DNA of 64,000 nt from Phaeodactylum tricornutum CCAP 1055/1 (Eukaryota > Bacillariophyta > Bacillariophyceae > Surirellales > Neidiaceae), in NCBI RefSeq assembly GCF_000150955.2, contig NC_011669.1:2238993-2302992 (forward strand). Direction: 5' to 3'. The notes below the pieces were generated by a model that worked only from the letters and a program-made list of their open reading frames with translations, had not been told where the DNA came from and did no database searches. Of this stretch, positions 26,261 to 51,062 are shown piece by piece (the stretch's first letter is position 1; every line of letters starts with the position of its first letter). Position numbers and translations under genes: made by a program.

Positions 26261-26397
26261 CAACAACCGTCGGCAAATCAGAAATATTACCACCATGACG
26301 GCGATACGCATCGCATCATCTATACATTTCACCACTACACAAAGGACTTACAGTTAACAAACAAATGCATTGAGTGGGCATGTAACGAGCTCAAATT

Positions 26398-28284: not shown

Positions 28285-28379
28285 AATAGTAGAGAGAATA
28301 TTTTCAACATCAAGTTTAATGGTGTAGTGTACATTATCATACAGCTAGCCTAAAATTCGCCAAGATTGAACTAAGGAAT

Positions 28380-29006
28380 TCAGGAAAACGAAAAGTAAAA
28401 TGAAGGCTCGTCTTCATCAATCCTTGTTTTCAATTCGAAGCCTATCGGAACGTTTAATTTGCGAAGCGTACGAAAAGCGAAAATGAGCACCGCAATGGTC
28501 AGTACAAAAACTTCCAATGCCTTATATACACGAATGGCACGTCCAGTGCCCGGATGTGTAAAAATGATACCACTCTGTTCGTCTTCGTCATCTTCCTGCT
28601 CGTCTGGAACTGCGGTAATGGAACTTATATCCCCGCTATCAATGGTCTGCGTGGTGACGCCGGAATTAATACTTCTATTCGTTGCGGATTTCCTTTCGTC
28701 TCCGACAAGCTCTGTGGGATCGCAGAAGCCGTAATGTAGTGCTCTTTTCAAGTTTGTGTATGGGTGTACGTTGATAACAGCTTCCAACCCTCTGGATGAG
28801 GGACTTATTTTATAAGACGACGATTGTGAAGCGCTGTCGTCTACAAGAATCTGTGTGTTCCCATCCGGAACAGAGCTGAGACTTTGCCGAGGCCGACAAA
28901 ACCCAATCAGAAATTCGTTGACGTTTTTGAACGGCGCAAACTCGACTGGGTTCAGTTCCAATAACGGACTGTCGTCGCACACTTCACCGTGTTCTGCGTG
29001 GCTCAT
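28380..29006 (-). CDS. Hypothetical one-TM protein (copy 1)
   Basis: A 208-residue protein with no family I recognise. The first 140 residues are polar, Ser/Asp/Glu-rich, with an acidic run (DEQEDDEDEQ). A single hydrophobic helix (ALEVFVLTIAVLIFAF) follows near residues 163-178, then a short basic and acidic tail. It is probably a membrane protein with a disordered soluble head. Copy 2 at 34875-35501 is identical at the protein level, so the frame has been kept intact. Confidence 0.5.
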   Translation of the reverse strand: MSHAEHGEVCDDSPLLELNPVEFAPFKNVNEFLIGFCRPRQSLSSVPDGNTQILVDDSASQSSSYKISPSSRGLEAVINVHPYTNLKRALHYGFCDPTELVGDERKSATNRSINSGVTTQTIDSGDISSITAVPDEQEDDEDEQSGIIFTHPGTGRAIRVYKALEVFVLTIAVLIFAFRTLRKLNVPIGFELKTRIDEDEPSFYFSFS

Positions 29007-29518
29007 CGTGTGCTCGTGTGACTTGGTGTTCTGCTCTCCACCTTCCGGACGGTTTTATTGCGAGAGACGCTGCTTCTGACTTTGGGTCGCTGTAAGCCTT
29101 CTTGACAAGAATGGGTTAATGGGATTTCAAACGATTTGAGATTACTAGACGCGGCCTTTCCAAATGATGATTGCCGCTGGTCAAACACCACCGGTAGCTA
29201 GTGTACCCGTTCACTGAACACAAAACAAGCGAGTTTCTTTTCTCCCGCCACACGTGTCGAAAGTTAGATCGCATCGATCGTGTGCTGACATTTTACATTA
29301 TTATAGCCTATCGTGGAAGGCTAATTTCCGGTTTCGGCGAGACTAACATAAACGCAATCCCGGGGTATCAAAGAGCAACACCACTGTAGTCTGGCAGTCT
29401 ATCCGGTCATAGCTCTTTTTGTTATGCACGTGCTCTTATACGCTACTCCAAGTCGAATGCCAAACTGAAGGTAACAGACACCTGCGTGTAAGACTTCTCA
29501 TACATCTTTCATAGTTTC
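29007..29518. other. Intergenic stretch in copy 1, no gene recognised
   Basis: About 510 bp between the one-TM gene start and the 3' end of the PsuG-PsuK gene. It is repeated in copy 2 and shows no conserved coding frame. Confidence 0.5.
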
Positions 29519-31711
29519 CTATTTTCCTAGTTTTAGAGTACTAAGAAAAGGTGAAATCGCCCTTTCTTTGCATTCCAAACTGAGTTTGGCTGCTTTCAAA
29601 CCAAACAGAATAGCGTCTTCCATCGACTTTCCCTCTAAAATTGCGTGTATAAAAGCTCCACAGAGGGAATCGCCAGCTCCAGTACTATTCTGAACCACAT
29701 TGCATTCCCGTGCAGGGAAATGACGAAATGCGAAACGGTTATTCTCAATCTTGGAAGCGTAGAAAACTCCTTTCGCGCCAACTGTAACAATAAGATGCGC
29801 TTCGTCCGGGTGCATTCGTTCCAAAACGCTCTGCGCAAGTGGCCGTGTTTCTGCGAAGGCATCGTCGTGTAGTAGCGTGTCCAAATCTTCGTCCGTGTTC
29901 AACCATCCATCCGCCATTGCAGAAAGCTCTCCAATGTTAGGGAAAGCGACTGAGATACACGACATTAATTTGTCGTCTCGGCCAACATCAGAGGCTTTGG
30001 GGAAGCTAGTCGGTTCAAAGTATACCTTTGTGTCCAGCGTGATTGCCAGTAGGGCGGTTTCTCGTAGCACTTCTATGGGAGGATTAGCATCCATCAGGAA
30101 AATGGCCGCATGTTGCAATACTTCCTTGGGTGGTGGCTGGATAGCATCCAAAACTCGTGTATCGGCGCATGCCACATGAAGATCGCCATCGGCTTGCAAA
30201 ATAGCAAGATAGGTCGCCGAGTTTAAACTATCTACAACTCGAACAGTATCGCGGCAATCTCGCATATTGCATTCATTTTCCAGTCGATCGAGTAACGCAA
30301 AGCCTCTAGCGTCTTTGCCAACTGCCGAATACAAGGCTGGTTTGGAACCCAGTCGTCCTAGAGATTCAGCCACATTTCGGGCCACTCCACCATCCGATTC
30401 AGAGCAAACGGCCCGGTTGGAAGTTTTCGGAACGAGCTCACACCCTAAAGCTGCCTTGGCGATCACATCAAGGACAATGCCTCCCATGATGACAATCCGT
30501 GAGTGAGGAATTGCGCTGGTGGGTTTGGCAATACAATCCGTGAGATTGGCAGTGCTTCTCCTTCGCTGCTCCGCGATCGCAATTGCAATGTCTGCGCCGA
30601 CTCTAGCGTTGTTTCGCACCAGCGACAAATTGCTACGTAAGGAATCACCACCGGTCAGCTCCGACACACGCTTTAATATAAATGGAGTTACGGCTTGGCC
30701 GACAATGCTCGGATCAACGCTAGCTTCTTGTAGCGCACGTTGAATCGCCTCTTCCACATTAGCACCGGCGGGGTCCATATTGGGGACCCCAACCAGCATT
30801 CCGTGTGGTAAATTCAAATCCCTGGCCACGTTGTAGGCAGCAGCGATTGTATCGGCATCCTCCATTCGACAAGAGGCCGGCACTCCAGAATGCGGTGAAA
30901 AGAATGCGGGAAACTCGTTAGATCGGTACGAAACAACCGGAACACCGTTTGTTTCTAAAACTTCCAGCGTGCGAGGGATGTCTAAGATGGACTTGATCCC
31001 GGCTGACACTACCACTACCGGAGTACGTGCTAATTCGTGTAAATCAGCCGAGACATCCATACTGACGTGACCGTCACGGTGCACACCACCGATTCCGCCC
31101 GTGACAAAAGTGGAGATGCCGGCCAAGTGAGCTAGTCGCATTGTAGACGCTACTGTCGTGGCCCCCCAATAGTTCGTATGACTTACGCCTTGTTTGCGGC
31201 GCCCATGTTGTGCCAAGAACAGAGACAGCTCGCGCGTGGAGCATTTTTGTACCCGATTTTGTTGTTTCGCCACGGCCAAGTCTTCCAATTCTTCCCATGT
31301 TAATCCAATTTTACAAACTCCATTTTGGACGGCAACTGTGGCTGGTTCAACCCCCTTATCCCGGAACAACTGCACTAGTGTGCGACATAGCTCAACGTTT
31401 TCTGGATAAGGAAGGCCATGTGCGACAATGGTCGATTCCAAGGCCACTACAGGACGCTGCTCAGAAAGCGCTTGTTGCACAGATTCATGCACTTGGATCG
31501 AATTATCGTCGGAAGGGCGTAGAAGTGGCGACCATGCTGACTGCGCGGATGATGAATATCCGCGCGAACTGTCACTTTCGAAAAGGCCCACCTTTGAGGA
31601 TGGCGAACTCAATCTTCGGGAAAAGGAGGATTCTACGCTCGTAGAAAACGCAGCAAAAACTTGTTTTCGGTGGGAACTCAGGCCAGCTGCATGTATTGCA
31701 ACAGAAGCGCG
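29519..31711 (-). CDS. Pseudouridine-5'-phosphate glycosidase / pseudouridine kinase fusion (copy 1, start in gap)
   Basis: A bifunctional pseudouridine catabolism enzyme. The N-terminal PsuG part contains VVALESTIVAHGLPYPEN, a GATTVASTM segment, FVTGGIGGVHRDGH and SAGIKSILDIPRTLEVLE, with the catalytic Lys in the last. The C-terminal PfkB-type kinase (PsuK) has a GGVARNVAESLGRLG motif and the NSTGAGDSLCGAF anion hole and catalytic Asp. The kinase makes pseudouridine 5'-phosphate and the glycosidase splits it to uracil and ribose 5-phosphate, so the fusion runs both steps. In copy 2 the frame begins 117 bp further upstream. The matching start would fall in the N gap, so 31612 is only the first visible ATG (697 residues). 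Two substitutions near the N-terminus, N/K and Q/R, separate the copies. Confidence 0.85.
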   Translation of the reverse strand, partial: RASVAIHAAGLSSHRKQVFAAFSTSVESSFSRRLSSPSSKVGLFESDSSRGYSSSAQSAWSPLLRPSDDNSIQVHESVQQALSEQRPVVALESTIVAHGLPYPENVELCRTLVQLFRDKGVEPATVAVQNGVCKIGLTWEELEDLAVAKQQNRVQKCSTRELSLFLAQHGRRKQGVSHTNYWGATTVASTMRLAHLAGISTFVTGGIGGVHRDGHVSMDVSADLHELARTPVVVVSAGIKSILDIPRTLEVLETNGVPVVSYRSNEFPAFFSPHSGVPASCRMEDADTIAAAYNVARDLNLPHGMLVGVPNMDPAGANVEEAIQRALQEASVDPSIVGQAVTPFILKRVSELTGGDSLRSNLSLVRNNARVGADIAIAIAEQRRRSTANLTDCIAKPTSAIPHSRIVIMGGIVLDVIAKAALGCELVPKTSNRAVCSESDGGVARNVAESLGRLGSKPALYSAVGKDARGFALLDRLENECNMRDCRDTVRVVDSLNSATYLAILQADGDLHVACADTRVLDAIQPPPKEVLQHAAIFLMDANPPIEVLRETALLAITLDTKVYFEPTSFPKASDVGRDDKLMSCISVAFPNIGELSAMADGWLNTDEDLDTLLHDDAFAETRPLAQSVLERMHPDEAHLIVTVGAKGVFYASKIENNRFAFRHFPARECNVVQNSTGAGDSLCGAFIHAILEGKSMEDAILFGLKAAKLSLECKERAISPFLSTLKLGK

Positions 31712-31761
31712 NNNNNNNNNNNNNNNNNNNNNNNNNNNNNNNNNNNNNNNNNNNNNNNNNN
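31712..31761. other. Assembly gap (50 N)
   Basis: Fifty N lie between the end of copy 1 and a retroelement-bearing sequence. The left flank is 18 bp short of the expected start codon of the PsuG-PsuK gene. Confidence 0.95.
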
Positions 31762-31782
31762 CTGTTTTGGGTCTCGACCGTT

Positions 31783-31915
31783 ACCATGCTTGGAAGCATG
31801 GTTACTATGGCAAACTTGCCCACGGTAGTGTGCACAATACCGTGGGATTGATGAAAATGGTCCACGGTAATGCTTAAGACCGTGGAACTGGACCACGGTG
31901 GTTTTGGCACCGTGG
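31783..31915. repeat. Cluster of four perfect hairpins next to the gap
   Basis: Four inverted repeats follow each other. They are accatgctt/aagcatggt (31783-31802, 2-nt loop); cccacggta/taccgtggg (31819-31846, 10-nt loop); tccacggt/accgtgga (31861-31886, 10-nt loop); and ccacggtg/caccgtgg (31893-31915, 7-nt loop). The last three share the same CCACGGT/ACCGTGG arms with different loops. Confidence 0.8.
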
Positions 31916-32776
31916 AACTTGATGAAACTGAATAGATTTGGCTTTAGTTTAGAGCTTATAAATCTTAACAACGATTGTGTGAAAACCATATTTGTTAGTT
32001 TGTATCTCTTTGTTAGAAGCCAGACGAGTCTTGATCACCTCGTGCTGTCTTCAGAAGCCAGGAGATACTTGACCATTGTCACAAGATACTCGGCTTTGGG
32101 AATGACGAGAAAGATGTGGCCGTGATTGCCGTCGCTGAATTCGGATTCGATAGATTCAGCGTTGTTGTTAAGCTCCCACTGCATTTTACGTAGGTTTTCG
32201 TACGTTGGATACGAAGTTGTAGTTGCAATGGGTGTTAGCGTGGTGTGAGGGAACAAATCCATGAGGCATGTAGTTGTAGTGATGGGTGTCATGATGATGA
32301 CGGTAGAAATCAAGGCAAGCGGTCAAATCTTGTGAAATCGCTGGAGTGTGTTGGCCGGATTGGTTAGATTGGTAACTTTTCGTGGCAGGCAACGGGAAGA
32401 GTAACGAGGTGGTCGTTGAAGGTGTTGTAAGGAGATAACGTGAGGGAATTGACTTTCTTATTAGTTCTATTGATGAGCTCTACAAACGCAAGAACGCGAA
32501 TGATGGAAATCGATGAACTAATAAGAATTATGAGTCGATTGAGAATCGCTATTTGGTTTGTATGGCTCGGAGACACTCTCAATGACTGGTTTGAATGGCA
32601 ATGACATGTTTGAAATGTCAGCGGGAAGACTAGAATGCCCGGTTGGCGTTCTTGTCTTGTAAGTACTTGTGATTTGAATCGGGATACTATAAGTAGACCC
32701 GTGACTGATAGGGTAACTGTCATCAGTACCGTAACTGATAGGGATAGGATGATTGGGCTCGATCTTCATATCAACA
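31916..32776 (-). mobile_element. CoDi-like Copia fragment: 5' LTR and start of gag, minus strand
   Basis: Read on the minus strand, an LTR starts TGTTGATATG at 32776 and runs to about 32400. A gag-like frame (32035-32313) with SYPTYENLRKMQWELN and DGNHGHIFLVIPKAEYL follows, typical of the N-terminal gag region of diatom CoDi elements. Only the 5' end of the element is present before the hairpin cluster and the gap. The LTR resembles the one at 6944-7260, so both come from related CoDi copies. The fragment is incomplete, and I did not see a second LTR or its other flank. Confidence 0.75.
32400..32776 (-). repeat. CoDi-like LTR abutting copy 2 (left end approximate)
   Basis: The TG end of the LTR is at 32776 and copy 2 homology starts at 32777. 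The shared LTR block is the segment around TTTCCATCATTCGCGTTCTT, seen also near 7213. The inner end near 32400 is estimated, because no second LTR of this copy is present. Confidence 0.65.
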
Positions 32777-32913
32777 CAACAACCGTCGGCAAATCAGAAA
32801 TATTACCACCATGACGGCGATACGCATCGCATCATCTATACACTTCACCACTACACAAAGGACTTACAGTTAACAAACAAATGCATTGAGTGGGCATGTA
32901 ACGAGCTCAAATT

Positions 32914-34779
32914 TTGTGCGACATGCATAGTTCCCTCTTCTTTTACGCAGCTTTCTACTCTGTGTACAGAGGCGTTGTCGATAATGTGTCTGCCCTACAG
33001 TTAATCAACCCGATTTCACTTGTTAGACGAAACGGTTCTTCGAGTTCAAGTAATAGGCGTTTCCTTAGTCGGTGTTCAAAAAGTTCCGAGAGGGAACCTT
33101 GTAGAGTGGTTGTGGTTGGAGGAGGTTGGGCTGGTTTCACCGCAGCAGATACTTTGGCAAGAGCATCTTCGAATGTATCAGTTACCCTCTTGGATGCGTC
33201 ACAGAGGGGCCCCGGAGGACTAGCAGGTGGCTGGAGAACGCCCAAGACTGGCCGGCCCGTCGAAGCAGGAATTCATGGCTTTTGGAGAGAGTATCGTAAT
33301 ACGTTTGCCATGATTGAAAACATTGGTTTAGACCTTGACGATGTCTTGACAAATTTCACACCGTCAATTTTGGTTTCGGAAAATGGACGCGTCGCCCTCG
33401 CACCCGTCCTCGGCAATACAATGGACAAGCCAAATCATCTACAAGCCAACAACCTGGACTGGTCTAATCCTCGCAGCCTGTTGGAGCAAATAGCGCCTTT
33501 GTTGCCGTCGCCTTTAGATGTTGCTTTGTTGGCTGATTTCAATCCCGACTCGGAACTCTCCATTGCCGACAGAATCAGCGGTATCGGGTTGCTTGGTGCA
33601 TGGGCCGACTTTGTACAAGAAGACCGCGACTCTTGGGAAAGATACGACAAGATATCAGCTGAAAACTTGTTTCGCTCGATTGCATCGATTTCACCAAACT
33701 TATACCGCGACTTGGTCGCTCCTCTTCTTCATGTTTTACCAATGACCCCAGGATACGACTGCTCCGCAGCTGCAGCGCTATCCTGCTTCCACTTCTTTGC
33801 ACTACAATCTCGAGGTGCGTTTGATGTACGCTGGTGCCGTGGGAGCATTTCGGAACGCATCTTCAATCCCTGGGTTGAGAAGCTGAGGGAAAGCGGCAAT
33901 GTTTGCATTCAAGGCTCCGCTCGGGTGACATCCATTGAACACTATGGCGGAGAGTACACGGTAATGATCAACAACAAGGTGTCCGTTACATGTGATGCTG
34001 TTGTTCTTGCCGTTGGCGCCACAGCGGCAGGAAGATTGATTGATTCGTGTCCACCACTGCAGAAGATTCCGAATCTAGCTTCAAAGTGGAAAGAACTTCG
34101 TGGTGTGAGCTGTGTAGCGGTTCGTCTCTTCTTTGCAGAACTTCCGCCGAGTCTTGCCTCTGCTATGAGCGACTCTCCTGTTGTCGTATGCGGGCCGAAT
34201 ATTGGGGGAGCCCCGCAACTCGTTGAGACTGGCTTTTGCATCTACGATCTGTCTCGATTGCAAGATGACTTCAAGGGCGGCGGTTTTGTGGGATTGGAGG
34301 TCGATTTTTTCCGGGCGGATGCAATTGCAAAAATGAGAGATGGCGACATTATCAAGCTTACATTGGATGCTGTCCAAACAGCACTTGGAGTCGAAAGCAT
34401 CGACATGGAGCTCGTCGAAGATTCGGCGGTTATCAGAGCCCTAAATGCTGTATCGCATTTTTGCGTCGGATCGGCAAGCAAGTCACCTCCCGTGAGGATT
34501 ACGAATGGGCTCTACATTTGCGGCGATTGGGTTGATCGAAGCGGGCATGCGTCGTGGAGCACCGAGAAGGCTGTGGTTACTGGTTTACAGGTGGCCAACG
34601 CAATTGACAGAGACTTTGGATTGGATTGTAGGCAAGCAGTTATTCCCGCTGCTGCCGATACCCCGCAACTCATGGGCTTGCGAAAGGCTGCCAAGGCATG
34701 GCGCAATGCATCACCTCCGCGATCGTTCCCAGTGTCACCGTGGTTACCCTTAAAGCAGTTTCGCCGTCGGATTGAATAG
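32914..34779 (+). CDS. FAD-dependent oxidoreductase, carotenoid-desaturase-like (copy 2)
   Basis: A 621-residue protein with the same FAD motifs as copy 1 (GGGWAGFTAADTL at the N-terminus, LYICGDWVDRSGHASWS near the C-terminus). It is seven residues shorter at the N-terminus because of the 21-bp indel. The differences I noticed are Leu/Pro (SCLPLQ in copy 1, SCPPLQ here) and Ala/Ser (PVAPW in copy 1, PVSPW here). If the two copies are alleles, this is the second haplotype of the same gene, and it then lies just downstream of the CoDi LTR, about 140 bp from the start codon. Confidence 0.7.
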   Translation: MCDMHSSLFFYAAFYSVYRGVVDNVSALQLINPISLVRRNGSSSSSNRRFLSRCSKSSEREPCRVVVVGGGWAGFTAADTLARASSNVSVTLLDASQRGPGGLAGGWRTPKTGRPVEAGIHGFWREYRNTFAMIENIGLDLDDVLTNFTPSILVSENGRVALAPVLGNTMDKPNHLQANNLDWSNPRSLLEQIAPLLPSPLDVALLADFNPDSELSIADRISGIGLLGAWADFVQEDRDSWERYDKISAENLFRSIASISPNLYRDLVAPLLHVLPMTPGYDCSAAAALSCFHFFALQSRGAFDVRWCRGSISERIFNPWVEKLRESGNVCIQGSARVTSIEHYGGEYTVMINNKVSVTCDAVVLAVGATAAGRLIDSCPPLQKIPNLASKWKELRGVSCVAVRLFFAELPPSLASAMSDSPVVVCGPNIGGAPQLVETGFCIYDLSRLQDDFKGGGFVGLEVDFFRADAIAKMRDGDIIKLTLDAVQTALGVESIDMELVEDSAVIRALNAVSHFCVGSASKSPPVRITNGLYICGDWVDRSGHASWSTEKAVVTGLQVANAIDRDFGLDCRQAVIPAAADTPQLMGLRKAAKAWRNASPPRSFPVSPWLPLKQFRRRIE

Positions 34780-34874
34780 AATAGTAGAGAGAATTTTTTC
34801 AACATCAAGTTTAATGGTGTAGTGTACATTATCATACAGCTAGCCTAAAATTCGCCAAGATTGAACTAAGGAAT

Positions 34875-35501
34875 TCAGGAAAACGAAAAGTAAAATGAAG
34901 GCTCGTCTTCATCAATCCTTGTTTTCAATTCGAAGCCTATCGGAACGTTTAATTTGCGAAGCGTACGAAAAGCGAAAATGAGCACCGCAATGGTCAGTAC
35001 AAAAACTTCCAATGCCTTATATACACGAATGGCACGTCCAGTGCCCGGATGTGTAAAAATGATACCACTCTGTTCGTCTTCGTCATCTTCCTGCTCGTCT
35101 GGAACTGCGGTAATGGAACTTATATCCCCGCTATCAATGGTCTGCGTGGTGACGCCGGAATTAATACTTCTATTCGTTGCGGATTTCCTTTCGTCTCCGA
35201 CAAGCTCTGTGGGATCGCAGAAGCCGTAATGTAGTGCTCTTTTCAAGTTTGTGTATGGGTGTACGTTGATAACAGCTTCCAACCCTCTGGATGAGGGACT
35301 TATTTTATAAGACGACGATTGTGAAGCGCTGTCGTCTACAAGAATCTGTGTGTTCCCATCCGGAACAGAGCTGAGACTTTGCCGAGGCCGACAAAACCCA
35401 ATCAGAAATTCGTTGACGTTTTTGAACGGCGCAAACTCGACTGGGTTCAGTTCCAATAACGGACTGTCGTCGCACACTTCACCGTGTTCTGCGTGGCTCA
35501 T
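34875..35501 (-). CDS. Hypothetical one-TM protein (copy 2)
   Basis: The protein is identical in sequence to the 208-residue protein of copy 1: a polar, acidic head, one hydrophobic helix near residues 163-178 and a short C-terminal tail. Family unknown. Confidence 0.5.
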   Translation of the reverse strand: MSHAEHGEVCDDSPLLELNPVEFAPFKNVNEFLIGFCRPRQSLSSVPDGNTQILVDDSASQSSSYKISPSSRGLEAVINVHPYTNLKRALHYGFCDPTELVGDERKSATNRSINSGVTTQTIDSGDISSITAVPDEQEDDEDEQSGIIFTHPGTGRAIRVYKALEVFVLTIAVLIFAFRTLRKLNVPIGFELKTRIDEDEPSFYFSFS

Positions 35502-36013
35502 CGTGTGCTCGTGTGACTTGGTGTTCTGCTCTCCACCTTCCGGACGGTTTTATTGCGAGAGACGCTGCTTCTGACTTTGGGTCGCTGTAAGCCTTCTTGA
35601 CAAGAATGGGTTAATGGGATTTCAAACGATTTGAGATTACTAGACGCGGCCTTTCCAAATGATGATTGCCGCTGGTCAAACACCACCGGTAGCTAGTGTA
35701 CCCGTTCACTGAACACAAAACAAGCGAGTTTCTTTTCTCCCGCCACACGTGTCGAAAGTTAGATCGCATCGATCGTGTGCTGACATTTTACATTATTATA
35801 GCCTATCGTGGAAGGCTAATTTCCGGTTTCGGCGAGACTAACATAAACGCAATCCCGGGGTATCAAAGAGCAACACCACTGTAGTCTGGCAGTCTATCCG
35901 GTCATAGCTCTTTTTGTTATGCACGTGCTCTTATACGCTACTCCAAGTCGAATGCCAAACTGAAGGTAACAGACACCTGCGTGTAAGACTTCTCATACAT
36001 CTTTCATAGTTTC
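35502..36013. other. Intergenic stretch in copy 2
   Basis: This is the same sequence as the intergenic stretch of copy 1 and holds nothing recognised. Confidence 0.5.
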
Positions 36014-38224
36014 CTATTTTCCTAGTTTTAGAGTACTAAGAAAAGGTGAAATCGCCCTTTCTTTGCATTCCAAACTGAGTTTGGCTGCTTTCAAACCAAA
36101 CAGAATAGCGTCTTCCATCGACTTTCCCTCTAAAATTGCGTGTATAAAAGCTCCACAGAGGGAATCGCCAGCTCCAGTACTATTCTGAACCACATTGCAT
36201 TCCCGTGCAGGGAAATGACGAAATGCGAAACGGTTATTCTCAATCTTGGAAGCGTAGAAAACTCCTTTCGCGCCAACTGTAACAATAAGATGCGCTTCGT
36301 CCGGGTGCATTCGTTCCAAAACGCTCTGCGCAAGTGGCCGTGTTTCTGCGAAGGCATCGTCGTGTAGTAGCGTGTCCAAATCTTCGTCCGTGTTCAACCA
36401 TCCATCCGCCATTGCAGAAAGCTCTCCAATGTTAGGGAAAGCGACTGAGATACACGACATTAATTTGTCGTCTCGGCCAACATCAGAGGCTTTGGGGAAG
36501 CTAGTCGGTTCAAAGTATACCTTTGTGTCCAGCGTGATTGCCAGTAGGGCGGTTTCTCGTAGCACTTCTATGGGAGGATTAGCATCCATCAGGAAAATGG
36601 CCGCATGTTGCAATACTTCCTTGGGTGGTGGCTGGATAGCATCCAAAACTCGTGTATCGGCGCATGCCACATGAAGATCGCCATCGGCTTGCAAAATAGC
36701 AAGATAGGTCGCCGAGTTTAAACTATCTACAACTCGAACAGTATCGCGGCAATCTCGCATATTGCATTCATTTTCCAGTCGATCGAGTAACGCAAAGCCT
36801 CTAGCGTCTTTGCCAACTGCCGAATACAAGGCTGGTTTGGAACCCAGTCGTCCTAGAGATTCAGCCACATTTCGGGCCACTCCACCATCCGATTCAGAGC
36901 AAACGGCCCGGTTGGAAGTTTTCGGAACGAGCTCACACCCTAAAGCTGCCTTGGCGATCACATCAAGGACAATGCCTCCCATGATGACAATCCGTGAGTG
37001 AGGAATTGCGCTGGTGGGTTTGGCAATACAATCCGTGAGATTGGCAGTGCTTCTCCTTCGCTGCTCCGCGATCGCAATTGCAATGTCTGCGCCGACTCTA
37101 GCGTTGTTTCGCACCAGCGACAAATTGCTACGTAAGGAATCACCACCGGTCAGCTCCGACACACGCTTTAATATAAATGGAGTTACGGCTTGGCCGACAA
37201 TGCTCGGATCAACGCTAGCTTCTTGTAGCGCACGTTGAATCGCCTCTTCCACATTAGCACCGGCGGGGTCCATATTGGGGACCCCAACCAGCATTCCGTG
37301 TGGTAAATTCAAATCCCTGGCCACGTTGTAGGCAGCAGCGATTGTATCGGCATCCTCCATTCGACAAGAGGCCGGCACTCCAGAATGCGGTGAAAAGAAT
37401 GCGGGAAACTCGTTAGATCGGTACGAAACAACCGGAACACCGTTTGTTTCTAAAACTTCCAGCGTGCGAGGGATGTCTAAGATGGACTTGATCCCGGCTG
37501 ACACTACCACTACCGGAGTACGTGCTAATTCGTGTAAATCAGCCGAGACATCCATACTGACGTGACCGTCACGGTGCACACCACCGATTCCGCCCGTGAC
37601 AAAAGTGGAGATGCCGGCCAAGTGAGCTAGTCGCATTGTAGACGCTACTGTCGTGGCCCCCCAATAGTTCGTATGACTTACGCCTTGTTTGCGGCGCCCA
37701 TGTTGTGCCAAGAACAGAGACAGCTCGCGCGTGGAGCATTTTTGTACCCGATTTTGTTGTTTCGCCACGGCCAAGTCTTCCAATTCTTCCCATGTTAATC
37801 CAATTTTACAAACTCCATTTTGGACGGCAACTGTGGCTGGTTCAACCCCCTTATCCCGGAACAACTGCACTAGTGTGCGACATAGCTCAACGTTTTCTGG
37901 ATAGGGAAGGCCATGTGCGACAATGGTCGATTCCAAGGCCACTACGGGACGCTGCTCAGAAAGCGCTCGTTGCACAGATTCATGCACTTGGATCGACTTA
38001 TCGTCGGAAGGGCGTAGAAGTGGCGACCATGCTGACTGCGCGGATGATGAATATCCGCGCGAACTGTCACTTTCGAAAAGGCCCACCTTTGAGGATGGCG
38101 AACTCAATCTTCGGGAAAAGGAGGATTCTACGCTCGTAGAAAACGCAGCAAAAACTTGTTTTCGGTGGGAACTCAGGCCAGCTGCATGTATTGCAACAGA
38201 AGCGCGATGGCCTATTCGATTCAT
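36014..38224 (-). CDS. PsuG-PsuK bifunctional pseudouridine catabolism enzyme (copy 2, complete)
   Basis: The complete 736-residue form has the same glycosidase and PfkB kinase motifs as copy 1 (STIVAHGLPYPEN, FVTGGIGGVHRDGH, SAGIKSIL; later GGVARNVAE and NSTGAGDSLCGAF). The first 40 residues (MNRIGHRASVAIHAAGLSSH, then several Arg, Ser and no acidic residue) look like a mitochondrial targeting peptide. That would place pseudouridine degradation in mitochondria, while in plants the two enzymes are separate proteins in peroxisomes. The order glycosidase-kinase is the one seen in fused eukaryotic proteins. Start at 38224 is the first ATG of the frame. Confidence 0.85.
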   Translation of the reverse strand: MNRIGHRASVAIHAAGLSSHRKQVFAAFSTSVESSFSRRLSSPSSKVGLFESDSSRGYSSSAQSAWSPLLRPSDDKSIQVHESVQRALSEQRPVVALESTIVAHGLPYPENVELCRTLVQLFRDKGVEPATVAVQNGVCKIGLTWEELEDLAVAKQQNRVQKCSTRELSLFLAQHGRRKQGVSHTNYWGATTVASTMRLAHLAGISTFVTGGIGGVHRDGHVSMDVSADLHELARTPVVVVSAGIKSILDIPRTLEVLETNGVPVVSYRSNEFPAFFSPHSGVPASCRMEDADTIAAAYNVARDLNLPHGMLVGVPNMDPAGANVEEAIQRALQEASVDPSIVGQAVTPFILKRVSELTGGDSLRSNLSLVRNNARVGADIAIAIAEQRRRSTANLTDCIAKPTSAIPHSRIVIMGGIVLDVIAKAALGCELVPKTSNRAVCSESDGGVARNVAESLGRLGSKPALYSAVGKDARGFALLDRLENECNMRDCRDTVRVVDSLNSATYLAILQADGDLHVACADTRVLDAIQPPPKEVLQHAAIFLMDANPPIEVLRETALLAITLDTKVYFEPTSFPKASDVGRDDKLMSCISVAFPNIGELSAMADGWLNTDEDLDTLLHDDAFAETRPLAQSVLERMHPDEAHLIVTVGAKGVFYASKIENNRFAFRHFPARECNVVQNSTGAGDSLCGAFIHAILEGKSMEDAILFGLKAAKLSLECKERAISPFLSTLKLGK

Positions 38225-40939: not shown

Positions 40940-42949
40940 TCAGTTGGGAGAAGGATCACCAAGATCGATAAGTTCGTCTTCCGTAAAAACCTTGGGGAGG
41001 ACGAAGGCCCGGATCAGCATCAAAAGTCCGATCACGCTTGGGAAGAAAATAGCTGTTGTACTGTTCTGTTTAAAGAACCAGAGTCCTCCCAAGCATCCAA
41101 TTTGTGTGACCGTAAATATGTTTGTCTTCTTTCTTCCAATGTAGCGTATTGGGTGGTCGGCCGGGAGTCGACTCTTTTCCACAAAACAGTCGCGTATTCG
41201 TTGCAAGAACGAGTTGCCTGACATGAGTTTCCTTCCAAGAAATAGGAATACTCCGGCGACAACGGGGATCGGGACAAATCGTAGTAGCGGCAAGATGGCA
41301 AGTGTTGAACATATTAGTGCATGGACGGCAAATCCTGTTACTCGCGTTTCTGTTACGCCGATAATCTCGGGTTCACCAGTGCGCTCGTTGAACCGTGTCT
41401 CGGTCAATGCGCGTACATGATTCAAAGACTGAACGGTCGCCCCACACATCCATGGCAGGCCGACGAGCGATAAGCAGCTAGTAATCAGTCCTAGTGCTAC
41501 CATATCGAGATTGTACGCAGCTCCCTTTTTGAGCTTGTTGTCGGGGTTGTTAACGACGCGGACACTAATGTTCTGGTCCATGAAAAAAAGGCTCGTCAGC
41601 AGAATCGCAGGTAGTACGCACGCCAATTTGATATTGAGAGGAATAGCGTTCAGATTGATCAGAAAATTACGACCACCAGACAACTGAAAGCTGCTCGGCA
41701 CAGTAAGTGTGGGAACCTTAAATTTTTTCATCCAAGCCCGCTGATTGAAAATTGACATGAGGATAAAGATTGTTACGGGTCCGAAATCTTTGACAATCGA
41801 CCGAATTTTTTGGTTCAGATACTTGCTGCTTTCAAAAGCGGCAACTTTGGCGGTGCACCAAAAAGTTGAAAGTGCCATGGCCAAGGAAACAAAGGGCATG
41901 GTTAAGTTCATGGGGTCGGCCAGGTCAAAATTACGCTTCAAGGAAGCAACAGCTTCGTATATAAAATTGACACTGAGCAAAGCATTAAAGACTTCATCCG
42001 TAAAGCGAGTGCAGAAGCGAATCAATTGGCTGGAACCACCAAGCCCAAGTAATACGAAGAAAAAACTTGTCCATAGTCCGACCCAGGCATAGATAGGAAA
42101 GAAAGGCAACGCCTTGACCATACAGAAACGGTAGAGTCCAGAAATAAAAGCGAGCGTCAGTCCCGTAGGAGCGATGAATGCCATGGGTTGTCCACACATC
42201 ATCGCGTAAGCCATTCCACTCAGACCGGAACTCAGTAAGAACTCAACAATGCCAATCGATCCTTGCGTTATCTCCGAAGCAATGGTACCGAAACTGACCG
42301 CCGGAGAAAGACAGGCAAAGTACAAGAACAGAATTGCAGGAATGACTTTCCGCTTGTTCTTAAATCCGTCTTCCCAGTCGGACCAGTATACCTTTTTGCG
42401 CCTTCGTATGTCGTCCCGCATTTCCTGCGAGACGATTGTATCGAAAAGATTCTTGGCGTGTTTTTGTGCGGTAGTCTCCGTGGAATTTCCATTGGAATAC
42501 TCTTCCAGTACTCTCTTCCATTGACGCTTTCGTCGATACCCTCTCATTCGGTCGATCTGTTCCAGATAAGAAGGTGAAAATTGAATCTTTTCCTTTACAT
42601 CTTCTTTCGTTCCTTCGATTGACTGTGTAGCATCATTGTTTGTGCTATCTGTATTGTCCTTATTCTTGCTGGAACCAACACTGGTCCTTCTGTCAGCAGG
42701 TAAAGACAGCCGTAGATAATTGGACCGTTTTCCCGGACGTCTCCCCAAATTCAGAACTGCAGCACTTCCCGGCACCAAGTGCAAGGATGATGGTTTGGTT
42801 CTACCCAGTGCACTAGAAGTAAAGGCGGATCCTGTGGTACAGAACGCGGACAATATTCCGATCCAGAGCACCGTATGCTGTAGAGCCCCGTCTTTTCTAT
42901 GGCGTTTACTCGACTGCTTCATTGCGTGAACAAGTGAGAGCCAATTCAA
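40940..42949 (-). CDS. Plastid-type SLC4 bicarbonate transporter
   Basis: A 669-residue protein of the SLC4/anion-exchanger family. After a polar N-terminus the DIRRRKKVYWSDWEDGFKNK segment precedes the first helices (VIPAILFLYFACLSPAVSFG). Later helices include AYAMMCGQPMAFIAPTGLTLAF, with the conserved substrate-site Pro/Thr region, and the C-terminal FLGRKLMSGNSFLQRI. About 12-14 membrane segments are visible. The N-terminus has a signal-peptide core (TVLWIGILSAFCTTGSA) followed by FTSS, the diatom plastid junction. This suggests import to the plastid envelope rather than the plasma membrane, where it would bring bicarbonate to the stroma in the CO2-concentrating mechanism. P. tricornutum has several SLC4 genes, and I cannot tell which one this is. 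Confidence 0.8.
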   Translation of the reverse strand: MNWLSLVHAMKQSSKRHRKDGALQHTVLWIGILSAFCTTGSAFTSSALGRTKPSSLHLVPGSAAVLNLGRRPGKRSNYLRLSLPADRRTSVGSSKNKDNTDSTNNDATQSIEGTKEDVKEKIQFSPSYLEQIDRMRGYRRKRQWKRVLEEYSNGNSTETTAQKHAKNLFDTIVSQEMRDDIRRRKKVYWSDWEDGFKNKRKVIPAILFLYFACLSPAVSFGTIASEITQGSIGIVEFLLSSGLSGMAYAMMCGQPMAFIAPTGLTLAFISGLYRFCMVKALPFFPIYAWVGLWTSFFFVLLGLGGSSQLIRFCTRFTDEVFNALLSVNFIYEAVASLKRNFDLADPMNLTMPFVSLAMALSTFWCTAKVAAFESSKYLNQKIRSIVKDFGPVTIFILMSIFNQRAWMKKFKVPTLTVPSSFQLSGGRNFLINLNAIPLNIKLACVLPAILLTSLFFMDQNISVRVVNNPDNKLKKGAAYNLDMVALGLITSCLSLVGLPWMCGATVQSLNHVRALTETRFNERTGEPEIIGVTETRVTGFAVHALICSTLAILPLLRFVPIPVVAGVFLFLGRKLMSGNSFLQRIRDCFVEKSRLPADHPIRYIGRKKTNIFTVTQIGCLGGLWFFKQNSTTAIFFPSVIGLLMLIRAFVLPKVFTEDELIDLGDPSPN

Positions 42950-43410: not shown

Positions 43411-46248
43411 TTATTGCTCATCCATCGCGGCGTCAGCAATAGTATCAAGTCTTTCAATGTTAGTACTGTCGTGCGCCAAAGCAATGTGGGAAGTTGAATC
43501 TTCGTTCTCGTTGTCATCTTCCGCCTTTCGTCTAGCACTCTCCTCGACAATGCTGCATCCCTCTTTCCATTGCAACGCCTTATTTGCGGGAATGTTCCTG
43601 AGCATTCGGTCGTACTGCCGGCGTACAGCGGTGAAGTCCGCGTTCCCTTCCCACAAAGCAGCGAACTTGCGCGTATCCTTCGATTCGGAAGCATCCACCA
43701 CAACCACAACGTCTGCGGCAATCTTTAGCAGATCATCACGAGGTAGCAGTTGGTTACCCAGTGACGACCATTCATTCAACAACATCACAAAGCAATCGTG
43801 TGCCGCCGTCATTATGGATCCTCTTTTGGAGCTTGTCTTTTGTGACAGCCATTGTAACCAGCACGATGTAATCGTATCGCGTGTCGTCTTGGCTAATTTG
43901 GCCTTATATCGCAGAATTGCTGAGATCAGGCAGAGGAAGAATACGCGGTCTTCCAAGAATGAGGTCGATAAGTTTTGCAAGGCAGCGGCAAACTTGGGGA
44001 AGGTTAGCGACAAAGAGTGGTCAGTAGAATTCTCGGGCTGGCATACTTGTACGAAGGCTCCTTCCACTAGCGATACCACCACACGCACATAAGTACTGCC
44101 ATTCCGCCAGGCATCGTTCGGAATGGGTTTTGGCTGAAGTAGAGGTGTAGACTGTGCGGCATCATACAAGTCGCCACCCAATACGATCCTCCTGTCCAGC
44201 TTTGACTCCAGCAGCAATCGCAACAACAGTGGCAGGTACCGTCGCAAGGATACAAACGGAATCATAGCGACAGGGTCTTCTGTTTCGGTAGCGAGCTCCA
44301 AACCTGCGTCTGGTACAGCGTACATCTTGGCTCGTATAGCACAGACTTTGGTTGACCAGCTGGCCATATGCAAAAACTGTAACAATGATGGCACCAGTGA
44401 ATGAGCTACTGGTAACGAGGTTGCCGGCAACACTCCTTTGCGTACTTCTCTCAGTACTCTTGCTAGTACAATTCTGACAACGAACGGATCAGATAGCAGC
44501 ATAAAGGCCAGAGCAGGCATACTCGGTAGATTGTCCTCTTTTGTTTCTTTCTTGCGTTTCTTGTTGGCAGCCTCGAGCGGCGTTATTGTTGGTTCTTCTT
44601 CGCCTGCTTTACGCTTGCGATTCACCGGATCATCCAAAACGATACGTTTAGCTTTTTCCTTTTGGTACAAGCGCCGTGCCTGCGGTAAAATTTCTTCCTT
44701 AAACACTTTCATTTGACGGTGGGCTTCGCCGCGGAACCATTGCCCGGCGTTGCCTCGGTTGTAGTCAATACAATTTTTGTACATGAGATTGACGTCTCCT
44801 TCCCAGTCTGACGGGGAGTTATATTTGTGTGATTCGACTTTATCTTCCATTGCCGCAATGCAGATTGGGTGCTTGATGACTTTGCTGTATCCCGGAGCAA
44901 TTTCATCCGTTACGGGGTTTAAAAAGAGGTGCTGCGGATCCGCTTCCTTGATAGCTGTCAAACCAGCAGTTATGATACGATCGAGCTGTCTTTGAATTGA
45001 GTTGGTGGCATGTTTATCCTCTTGCTTCTGCTGAGCCTTGGCGGCTGGCTTCTTTTGCGGACTGAGCGGCGCACCAATTTCATCCGGTTCGAAGATTCTG
45101 CGCAATGCTTCTTGTATTTTGACCACATGGGCATCTAGCAATGCTCCTTGTTGTACAGACTCGTCTAGTACGTGTGCCAAAGTCAACACGTGTTGATACG
45201 CCTTGGGAAGTGGTCCTCCTGTTGACAAGAGAAGGTCGGCTACCAAAGTGCAGTGGAGGTGTTCGGCGCCGCCGAGAAATGCCGTCTTATGAGTCCCGTG
45301 CTGTGCCATTAGAACAGACAGAATGGCGTGCAACAACTTGGGTCGATAGCTAGAGGATAAAGCTCCTGCATCACACAAGAGGGAACGAAGTTGCGAAACA
45401 GCCTTTCCGGAAGTCAAGCCTTCGGGCAACACGGCGGCCGTTCGTACAACAACACCTCCAGCAGGGCTTGAGGAGCTTGTCGAGGTATTCAACGAGGAGA
45501 GAGCTCGCCGCTGTGTAGTAGAGATACGGAGCTCGCGAATGCTGGACACAAAAGGTCGATTGGCTGCATCCACTAATGCCGTGTTTGAAGAGTACTGCCT
45601 CATGAAGGGTTCGATCGTCTCGAAGAGCAAGGTTGATTTCACTTTTTCCAAATAGCTATTGGGTTCGTCATCCGTGTCGACTGAGATTCGGTTTTCCCAG
45701 TCAGCTTCCCAAACCAACCGTTTGAGGAGCGAAGGAAGAGGTTTGAATATATCTGTGTGCTTCATTTCCCCCTGCTCGTCTCGTTCCGCCAAGGCGATCA
45801 AAACAGCGTTTGGTGTTTTATCCCCCAACTGCCGCAGCACAGTCCACAAAACGGGTCGTAACTCTGGCAGCGTCGTAGCATAGTTCCAGGAGGATTTTAA
45901 AAGCTCCAGAAGAGGCTCCTTTGACGTGGTTTTACGGATCTCGTCTTCGAGCTGCTTCATGAAAGTCTCCGAGATCCGTTTATGTACTTCGTGCTGCCCA
46001 ACTCCCAAATGAGCAAGAAATTGAAGGACCGAGTCCGTATCCAAAGCCTCGCAATCTTCTCCATTCTCCACTTGGTATGAGGGAGTAGTACCGAAAGCCT
46101 GAGCCATCATTGTGTGTAAGGAATGGGACTGCTGAAAGCTAGTGATGGTCGCTGCCGGATCTGTCGAACGGACCAGGGCACGTCGGAGGTCACGTTTTCC
46201 CGCGGGCCCCACGGGAAATACCGGTGACTTATCCTTGGAGGATGCCAT
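43411..46248 (-). CDS. NELF-B-like (COBRA1) protein with internal bromodomain
   Basis: A 945-residue single-exon protein. Residues 1-380 match the N-terminal half of negative elongation factor B in pattern. RRALVRSTDPAATITSFQ parallels KETLTNCTEPLKAIEQFQ. LLKSSWNYATTLPELRPVL parallels LLEKSFSLVKMPSLQPVV. LVWEADWE sits where NELF-B has IWQDN. A bromodomain occupies about 415-530: HLFLNPV, GYSKVIKHP, then DVNLMYKNCIDYN with the acetyl-lysine Asn at about 497. After a Lys/Arg-rich stretch the NELF-B-like part resumes at LLSDPFVVRIVL (584), which parallels the LCDPFAINTL segment, and runs on as helices. So the bromodomain sits in the linker that precedes this DPF block. NELF-B belongs to the complex that pauses RNA polymerase II. 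The bromodomain suggests contact with acetylated histones. Similarity to NELF-B is by eye and not by search. Confidence 0.65.
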   Translation of the reverse strand: MASSKDKSPVFPVGPAGKRDLRRALVRSTDPAATITSFQQSHSLHTMMAQAFGTTPSYQVENGEDCEALDTDSVLQFLAHLGVGQHEVHKRISETFMKQLEDEIRKTTSKEPLLELLKSSWNYATTLPELRPVLWTVLRQLGDKTPNAVLIALAERDEQGEMKHTDIFKPLPSLLKRLVWEADWENRISVDTDDEPNSYLEKVKSTLLFETIEPFMRQYSSNTALVDAANRPFVSSIRELRISTTQRRALSSLNTSTSSSSPAGGVVVRTAAVLPEGLTSGKAVSQLRSLLCDAGALSSSYRPKLLHAILSVLMAQHGTHKTAFLGGAEHLHCTLVADLLLSTGGPLPKAYQHVLTLAHVLDESVQQGALLDAHVVKIQEALRRIFEPDEIGAPLSPQKKPAAKAQQKQEDKHATNSIQRQLDRIITAGLTAIKEADPQHLFLNPVTDEIAPGYSKVIKHPICIAAMEDKVESHKYNSPSDWEGDVNLMYKNCIDYNRGNAGQWFRGEAHRQMKVFKEEILPQARRLYQKEKAKRIVLDDPVNRKRKAGEEEPTITPLEAANKKRKKETKEDNLPSMPALAFMLLSDPFVVRIVLARVLREVRKGVLPATSLPVAHSLVPSLLQFLHMASWSTKVCAIRAKMYAVPDAGLELATETEDPVAMIPFVSLRRYLPLLLRLLLESKLDRRIVLGGDLYDAAQSTPLLQPKPIPNDAWRNGSTYVRVVVSLVEGAFVQVCQPENSTDHSLSLTFPKFAAALQNLSTSFLEDRVFFLCLISAILRYKAKLAKTTRDTITSCWLQWLSQKTSSKRGSIMTAAHDCFVMLLNEWSSLGNQLLPRDDLLKIAADVVVVVDASESKDTRKFAALWEGNADFTAVRRQYDRMLRNIPANKALQWKEGCSIVEESARRKAEDDNENEDSTSHIALAHDSTNIERLDTIADAAMDEQ
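44659..45006 (-). other. Bromodomain-coding segment inside the NELF-B-like gene
   Basis: Residues about 415-530 form a complete bromodomain pattern with the ZA-loop Pro residues (NPV, KHP) and the YN acetyl-lysine pair. Basic, disordered-looking sequence follows it up to about residue 570. Confidence 0.75.
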
Positions 46249-49247: not shown

Positions 49248-51062
49248 TTAAACTAGCAGACCTCCTTGTACAACGAGAAGCCGTTCCCATGATCGTCTTT
49301 TCGAAATGTGTTCCCATTCGTCTCTGCTGATGCTCCAAATCCTATACCTAACCGTAGCCGCGTACTTCCGCGCGCCCTGCCATGCCTCTGCCACGGGTTT
49401 ATCGTCAAGGTCCAGCTGAATATCGTATTCAGCGGGAGCCAGGCAGCGAATTTCATGGAGTAACCTGGCCTTTATGTTTGAAAGCAGCGCAAGACCACCA
49501 ATCAGACGAATCGTCTTATACAGAGCTGGCTGGTAGGATTCTGGACACGCTCCAATGGATTGCACAATCGCCTGCGGAAGACTGGCCCAGTCAAGTGGCA
49601 GTCCCAAATCGGAGGGACGAAAGAAGGCTTCGGGGAAGGTAAAGCGTTCCACACTTACGTTCAAAATTTGTTCTTCCTCTTCCTGATCTCTTCGTTGTCG
49701 TTCTTCCTCTTTCCGTTGGCGTAGTAAGCGCTGTCGTCTATCTTCGGGACTCTCATCCTCAGAATCTTCCGCATCGTCGTTGTCGCCGCTGTCGTCTTCG
49801 TTGTTGGTTTGGCCAAATATTTCATCCTTGCCGACACTTTCGTCATCGAAAAATTCATCCTTGGCCGCCAGCGTTTTGATTTGTTCTACTTCTTGTTCTG
49901 GTTGTTGTAGCTGCAAGGCGGCGGGCAACTGGACTCGTCCTTGTGTGGTTTTTTGGAAATCCGGTAAAACAAACTCTCGATCGTAGGGTCGCTGCCCGGC
50001 AGGGAGACGTCGTGCCAAAGCTATTTCGGTATGAAAATCGAGGGAGACGTAGGCCGTCCGCTCCCAAACATCGCGTACAATGAATTCCTGCTCCATCAAG
50101 TTCCATTGTCGATAGGAGCAAAAGTGTTTCCAAGCATTGATCAGATGCCGACCGCCAATTGGGACTCGCCGGATGGCTCGTGAGTCCAGTACCTGTTGTC
50201 GGTGAGTCGGAACAATGTGTGTGGCGCTCCAGCCGAGATCAACGACGCAGCAGGTATCGTAATCGTTGGAGACATTCTGAGCCGCGGCGACGGCGGATAC
50301 GCAGAGTCCGACGTGCGCGAAGCCCAGGTCTTCCAGCCAAGTCTGTACGATGAGATCCAGCATGATCCGAGGCGTGTGCGGGGCCAAAGCTAGCAGGACT
50401 GCACACGTTGCGGCGGGAATCTCGGGAGTGTCCGGATCGGCGGCTCTGGCTCGGGCGGCGATTTTCCAACCAAACGCCTGAGCTGTTTCGGTATGCGTTG
50501 GTACCGATACGTGCAAAAGATCCAAGAGACGCTTCCAGACTTGCACCTGATTGCCGAGATTAACAACGACACCGCGTTCGGTCGAGTGAGTGACACCAAT
50601 GAGCTGACTGGGATTCTGAACGGTGGATAACTGATCACCGACTAGAACAGTCCACTGTTGCGGTAGGCGCGCCGTTTTGTTGGGAATCAAGGACGGCAAT
50701 GTGTCCGTCGACCAACCGTACTTCAACGTGTCTCCACCATTGTCGATGATCAAAATGCGTGTCGGTGCGGGTGTTGATGTTGTGGTAGATAGTTTCTGGG
50801 GAGAAACGTTCTTTACCACTTTGACCTTGCGTACCGCAGAGTCGGCCCCCACTCGCTTCTTTTTCTTCGTTATAGTTGTATCTGTCGTAGGATCGGATGT
50901 CACCGCAGACTTTGGTCGTTTCCGTTTCTTCGCGACGCCGGCATCGCGTACCGAGGAAACGTTGGGATCGGGAACGGGAGCAGCCTCGGTAGCTTGCGTT
51001 GTCCTTTCGGCCTGGATGGTGCTGTTGCTGGTGTTATTATTGGCAACCATGATCGACACCAA
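49248..51062 (-). CDS. ARP6: Actin-related protein 6 (Arp6)
   Basis: A 604-residue actin-fold protein. The ATPase-like start IIDNGGDTLKYGWS and the phosphate-2-like CCVVDLGWSATHIVP are seen. The most specific part is the C-terminal third: SVERFTFPEAFFRPSDLGL, then TIRLIGGLALLSNIK and ARLLHEIRCLAPAEYDIQL, close to NFPVERFTVPEILFHPSDIG and VYSEVRCLTPTDYDV of animal and fungal Arp6. Arp6 is a subunit of the SWR1/SRCAP complex that exchanges H2A for H2A.Z. An acidic and then Arg/Glu-rich insert of about 90 residues (about 330-420) interrupts the fold. The N-terminal 100 residues are Lys- and Thr-rich and probably disordered with nuclear-localisation signals. Confidence 0.85.
   Translation of the reverse strand: MVSIMVANNNTSNSTIQAERTTQATEAAPVPDPNVSSVRDAGVAKKRKRPKSAVTSDPTTDTTITKKKKRVGADSAVRKVKVVKNVSPQKLSTTTSTPAPTRILIIDNGGDTLKYGWSTDTLPSLIPNKTARLPQQWTVLVGDQLSTVQNPSQLIGVTHSTERGVVVNLGNQVQVWKRLLDLLHVSVPTHTETAQAFGWKIAARARAADPDTPEIPAATCAVLLALAPHTPRIMLDLIVQTWLEDLGFAHVGLCVSAVAAAQNVSNDYDTCCVVDLGWSATHIVPTHRQQVLDSRAIRRVPIGGRHLINAWKHFCSYRQWNLMEQEFIVRDVWERTAYVSLDFHTEIALARRLPAGQRPYDREFVLPDFQKTTQGRVQLPAALQLQQPEQEVEQIKTLAAKDEFFDDESVGKDEIFGQTNNEDDSGDNDDAEDSEDESPEDRRQRLLRQRKEEERQRRDQEEEEQILNVSVERFTFPEAFFRPSDLGLPLDWASLPQAIVQSIGACPESYQPALYKTIRLIGGLALLSNIKARLLHEIRCLAPAEYDIQLDLDDKPVAEAWQGARKYAATVRYRIWSISRDEWEHISKRRSWERLLVVQGGLLV

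Follow-up and report, generated by a model that had tools for sequence, protein, structure and literature searches.

A bromodomain inserted between the two parts of a NELF-B protein in the diatom Phaeodactylum tricornutum

Results

An uninterrupted, single-copy gene

The window analyzed here is a stretch of 64,000 nucleotides of the Phaeodactylum tricornutum CCAP 1055/1 genome (contig NC_011669.1, positions 2,238,993 to 2,302,992). On its minus strand, an open reading frame at 43411-46248 starts with ATG and encodes 945 amino acids with no stop inside, within a stop-to-stop frame of 999 amino acids; the intact 945-residue frame given in a preliminary description of this DNA was thus found to be uninterrupted from its ATG. 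When the whole genome (27,450,724 bases in 88 contigs) was searched with either half of the NELF-B part at E up to 10, no second NELF-B copy was found. The gene is therefore single-copy, and must act as the genome's NELF-B. It is followed on the minus strand by a bicarbonate-transporter gene at 40940-42949 (PF00955, E 6.3e-128). The features discussed below are as follows.

43411..46248, minus strand: complete gene for the 945-residue NELF-B with inserted bromodomain (open frame, conservation, structure model)
45094..46248, minus strand: NELF-B N-terminal module, residues 1-385 (hhalign against vertebrate NELF-B)
44635..45006, minus strand: bromodomain, residues 415-538
44887..44889, minus strand: codon of Tyr454, presumed ZA-loop pocket tyrosine (conservation; role from general knowledge)
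44758..44760, minus strand: codon of Asn497, presumed acetyl-lysine-binding asparagine (conservation; role from general knowledge)
44548..44562, minus strand: basic stretch KKRKK, residues 563-567, between the bromodomain and the second NELF-B part
43570..44523, minus strand: NELF-B middle (hinge) and C-terminal modules, residues 576-893 (hhalign, COBRA1, model alignment)
Contig 2, 741206-743785 (L003:707-3286), plus strand: NELF-C/D (TH1) with tandem WW domains (PF04858, PF00397)

The bromodomain and its pocket

The bromodomain was the sole Pfam family above its cut-off in the 945-residue protein (PF00439, residues 431-500, E 8.7e-19, 67.7 bits against a cut-off of 21.7), and in the predicted structure the helical domain spans about residues 415-538. 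When the window protein was aligned with its 120 listed relatives, Asn497 was conserved in 120 of the 121 sequences and Tyr454 in all 121; from general knowledge of bromodomains, we take both to be residues of the acetyl-lysine pocket. The complete bromodomain with an acetyl-lysine asparagine near residue 497, as proposed from the letters in the preliminary description, was therefore borne out. Judged by its sequence, the pocket looks functional, and the near invariance of its Asn and Tyr while the adjoining linkers diverge argues for binding under selection. The modeled domain superposed on that of BRD1 with an rmsd of 1.3 over 112 residues; a Plasmodium protein and BRD1 gave the best bromodomain folds for the model, and BRD9 was the closest solved bromodomain by sequence (55.7 bits). 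A complete domain with pocket Asn and Tyr is thus common to the diatom protein and to bromodomains of the BRD9, BRD7, and BRD1 type, whereas the diatom domain sits within a pausing factor. In 113 of the 121 sequences, moreover, the interval from residue 535 to residue 581 contained a K-K/R-K/R-K/R run; the corresponding KKRKK at residues 563-567 is a possible nuclear signal or nucleic-acid contact.

Distribution of the fused architecture

A protein search (E up to 1e-3) yielded 190 relatives among the 7996 best word-sharing candidates that were scored, of which 120 were listed. The bromodomain was present in all 120 listed relatives. Their identity to the window protein ranged from 39 to 62%, with the best listed relative being 62% identical over 94%, and for 106 of the 120 the alignment covered more than 90% of the protein. 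Those listed with an organism name were raphid pennate diatoms (Epithemia, Nitzschia, Mayamaea, Fistulifera, Cylindrotheca, Seminavis, and Pseudo-nitzschia) or "Bacillariaceae sp."; many rows carried no name. Six relatives (P0072, P0095, P0099, P0103, P0108, and P0114), among them Pseudo-nitzschia arenysensis and P. pungens, are transcriptome-derived by name and carry the fusion, indicating that one continuous transcript exists in relatives. In the databases, some relatives are named "bromodomain-containing protein 7/9" or "7" and others hypothetical. No relative was found in viral contigs scanned with the profile of alignment A1 (described below). When human NELF-B was used as the query, the named matches were vertebrate and no protist intermediates were seen among the 120 of 819 matches listed; outside diatoms, NELF-B was accordingly compared by using vertebrate sequences.

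The flanking parts correspond to NELF-B

Profile comparisons were carried out with a diatom profile built from alignment A1 (59 of the 121 sequences, each less than 70% identical to the others) and a vertebrate NELF-B profile (human NELF-B plus members shorter than 640 residues among the 120 listed matches). A smaller alignment, A2, comprised 50 of these 59 diatom sequences. In local hhalign comparisons, residues 13-385 aligned with human NELF-B 8-290 (probability 96.2%, E 2.1e-9), and the full-length profile matched NELF-B with a probability of 95.3%. When the bromodomain columns were removed, a single alignment ran over human residues 8-383 (97.0%, E 8.8e-11), whereas the bromodomain alone gave 0.1%. 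The C part alone matched weakly, with residues 581-681 on human 301-383 (13.2%, E 0.0021). In global mode, NELF-B was matched at 97.7% by the N part and at 97.5% by the profile lacking the bromodomain, and the other three queries (C part, full profile, bromodomain) each gave 0.0%. With a reversed NELF-B profile as the control, probabilities dropped to 0.1-0.3%; neither flank matched NELF-C/D, which is likewise helical (0.1-0.7%; profile from 51 of 111 relatives, 820-999 residues long). The preliminary description had pointed to two motif blocks colinear with NELF-B and had proposed comparing each flank separately with that family (Pfam COBRA1). The N block was strongly supported on both counts; the C block proved to be colinear but weak, and it is assigned to NELF-B on the strength of this colinearity and of the structure comparison below.

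Scans of single sequences were not decisive. In the window protein alone, Pfam COBRA1 gave no match even at E up to 10, and an NCBIfam scan gave nothing at E up to 1; its only other Pfam match, to a coatomer family, stayed below cut-off (E 0.14, or 0.051 when the N part was scanned by itself). A six-frame search of the genome with COBRA1 also gave no match, but as control genomes likewise gave none, this outcome is uninformative. When 50 relatives were scanned singly against Pfam at E up to 1, just one family occurred more often than COBRA1, which was weakly matched in 9 (best E 0.012). In relatives P0010 and P0060, it scored 8.7 and 13.7 bits (cut-off 22) at the block that follows the bromodomain (family profile 196-254). 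A few other families had somewhat better best E-values than COBRA1 in single relatives: DUF7877 in 4 members (best E 0.00037), where the match in P0100 falls within the bromodomain region; the helical repeat HEAT_EF3_N in 3 of the 50 (best E 0.0065; 15.6 bits against a cut-off of 32 in P0072); and COG2_C in 2 of the 50 (best E 0.011).

The profile comparison covered NELF-B and its controls; the unbiased comparison was that of structure. The predicted model (pLDDT 83.7, pTM 0.73) had NELF-B as its best Foldseek match, and its five best matches among solved structures were all NELF-B entries. The remaining 45 of the best 50 structure matches were bromodomains, so that weaker helical-repeat matches would not show there. 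The model aligned with NELF-B chains up to residue 887-893, and the NELF-B fold extended over the whole modeled chain; identity with human NELF-B (PDB 7ycx_f, 8jj6_A, 8w8e_V) in the structural alignment was 17%. When the A1 profile was compared with the sequences of solved structures, the best 60 of 437 matches were all bromodomain proteins, a result that says nothing on NELF-B. Both NELF-B halves are thus present, and they are predicted to fold as one NELF-B.

The insertion point lies at a known module boundary

In human NELF-B, about ten residues (291-300) lie between the two flanking blocks, whereas in the diatom sequences (n = 121) 179-262 residues, including the bromodomain, occupy this interval. 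The bromodomain region hence stands in place of human residues 291-300, in the inter-block linker to which the preliminary description had assigned it. Crosslinking has divided human NELF-B into N-terminal (85-291), middle (291-438), and C-terminal (438-519) parts, of which the middle may serve as a hinge (PMC4940160). As the boundary at residue 291 coincides with the insertion point, the bromodomain was inserted at an independently known module boundary. The linkers around the bromodomain showed low conservation across A1, and those at residues 390-412 and 538-549 were modeled with low confidence; the domain is therefore probably held on a flexible tether.

The NELF-C/D partner carries tandem WW domains

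The partner of NELF-B was found in the same genome. An 859-residue frame on contig 2 encodes NELF-C/D (TH1), matched by PF04858 with E 2.8e-27 in the genome search and 9.1e-42 on the 859-residue protein. Unexpectedly, two WW domains were detected at its N terminus (PF00397, E 2.8e-18). Human NELF-C/D is not known to carry WW domains, and the diatom protein differs from it in this tandem. A WW domain was listed in 88 of 111 NELF-C/D relatives, including the centric diatom Discostella and Fragilaria, and some relatives are annotated in metagenomes as "TH1 protein/WW domain". Of the 23 without a listed WW domain, 22 start matching at query residue 184 or later, past the WW region, as could result from truncated models or from an intron upstream; the start of one relative with no WW domain listed, P0314, shows a WW-like stretch by eye. 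Some of these relatives may nonetheless hold a genuine WW-less form. With the WW tandem, the core pausing complex has a second fusion of the reader type. A genome search for NELF-A (PF23553) gave no match at E up to 10, and control genomes likewise gave none. Strong evidence for NELF-E has been described as confined to metazoans (PMC11482795).

Discussion

A core of NELF-B and NELF-C/D has been reported to be widespread in eukaryotes (PMC10055653, PMC11482795), and species with NELF to have higher pausing indexes than species without it (PMC11482795), yet NELF was still termed metazoan-specific in a 2025 paper (PMC11881899). In the main text of a preprint on NELF evolution, the terms diatom, stramenopil, Phaeodactylum, Thalassiosira, and bromodomain all go unmentioned. 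As far as our searches go, both a bromodomain within NELF-B and WW domains on NELF-C/D are new in the open-licence literature, where no report was found of acetyl-lysine or chromatin binding, complex formation, or pausing by a diatom NELF.

The preliminary description had regarded the protein as a NELF-B with a built-in bromodomain, a reading upheld by the profile comparison, the structure model, the occurrence of the domain in 120 of 120 listed relatives, and the single copy. We propose, with a probability of roughly 60%, that this NELF-B pairs with NELF-C/D and reads the acetylation of the +1 nucleosome, tying pausing to it. By this proposal, NELF-B would join the genome's NELF-C/D in a core NELF on early-elongating Pol II, and the bromodomain would bind acetylated histone tails from a lobe able, in the human complexes, to face the +1 nucleosome downstream. 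Acetyl binding would then bring NELF to active, acetylated promoters or keep it there, such that the strength or release of pausing would track how far the +1 nucleosome is acetylated; the WW tandem could offer a second contact, perhaps with the CTD of Pol II or a different proline-rich protein. Recruitment or retention is favored over an effect that draws NELF off, a choice that sequence cannot decide.

In P. tricornutum, H3K27ac was reported mainly as narrow peaks near transcription start sites (PMC10421102), and the human NELF-BE lobe lies near the nucleosome in one binding mode (PMC11881899). Acetylation at start sites, combined with this lobe position, would place the NELF-B bromodomain to read the nucleosome that Pol II enters next. 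Because it is NELF-E and not NELF-B that touches the nucleosome and DNA directly in the human structures (PMC11881899), the direction of the bromodomain within the complex is an extrapolation. A bolder version of the proposal, which we offer tentatively and consider less likely than not, is that a core NELF with two readers replaces the metazoan NELF-A and NELF-E tentacles and renders pausing gated by chromatin; here the bromodomain would read +1 nucleosome acetylation and the WW domains might recognize the CTD of Pol II or some proline-rich protein.

Among other explanations, the one that survives best, with something like a one-in-five chance in our estimate, is that the ligand of the bromodomain is an acetylated protein other than a histone (for example, an elongation factor, the polymerase itself, or the protein's own basic linker), with the domain serving to control how NELF assembles instead of contacting the nucleosome. 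Such ligands are within the general repertoire of bromodomains, which are able to bind non-histone proteins, and the lysine-rich stretch just past the domain is conserved in 113 of the 121 sequences. However, nothing ligand-specific points to non-histone reading, and the position of the human NELF-BE lobe near the nucleosome (PMC11881899) makes histones a nearby acetylated target. Somewhat less probable still is a NELF-B whose bromodomain is structural or vestigial, or which acts independently of Pol II. A pausing-independent, cytoplasmic function of NELFB has been described in mammals (PMC10591015), but conservation of the pocket Asn (120/121) and Tyr (121/121) next to diverging linkers speaks against a vestigial domain.

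It is very unlikely that the protein is a SWI/SNF subunit of the BRD7/9 type whose helical flanks are not NELF-B. This identity is suggested by BRD9 as the closest solved bromodomain and by the names (BRD7/9 or 7) given to the Fistulifera, Seminavis, and some metagenome entries; it was rejected, as the flanks match NELF-B in both profile and fold and DUF3512, which we take to be the BRD7/9 family domain, was found neither in the window protein and six relatives (E up to 10) nor among the 25 families, out of 31, that were listed for the 50 relatives (E up to 1). An annotation or assembly artefact in which two adjoining genes are read as one, for which no supporting point was found, is strongly disfavored by the continuous stop-free frame, the bromodomain in 120 of 120 listed relatives including six derived from transcriptomes, and the joint modeling of the N and C halves as one NELF-B.

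The link between pausing and histone acetylation runs, in animals, through separate proteins such as BRD4 and P-TEFb. Here, a predicted acetyl-lysine reader lies in the same chain as a core pausing subunit in each of the 120 diatom relatives listed; if the proposed function holds, a non-animal NELF core would have gained its own chromatin reader. One gene and one asparagine provide a testable handle on pausing in major ocean photosynthesizers and on the evolution of pausing.

Other features of the window

An apparently recent tandem duplication was observed at 26261-38224, with a spacing of about 6.5 kb. Frames 29519-31612 and 36014-38224, both of which carry Indigoidine_A and PfkB, are identical at 694 of 697 residues, and the segments 26261-26402 and 26419-26718 are repeated (99%) at 32777-32918 and 32914-33213, respectively. 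On the minus strand, 49248-51062 encodes a 604-residue protein of the actin family (PF00022, E 3.1e-36), longer than the 410 positions of the family profile.
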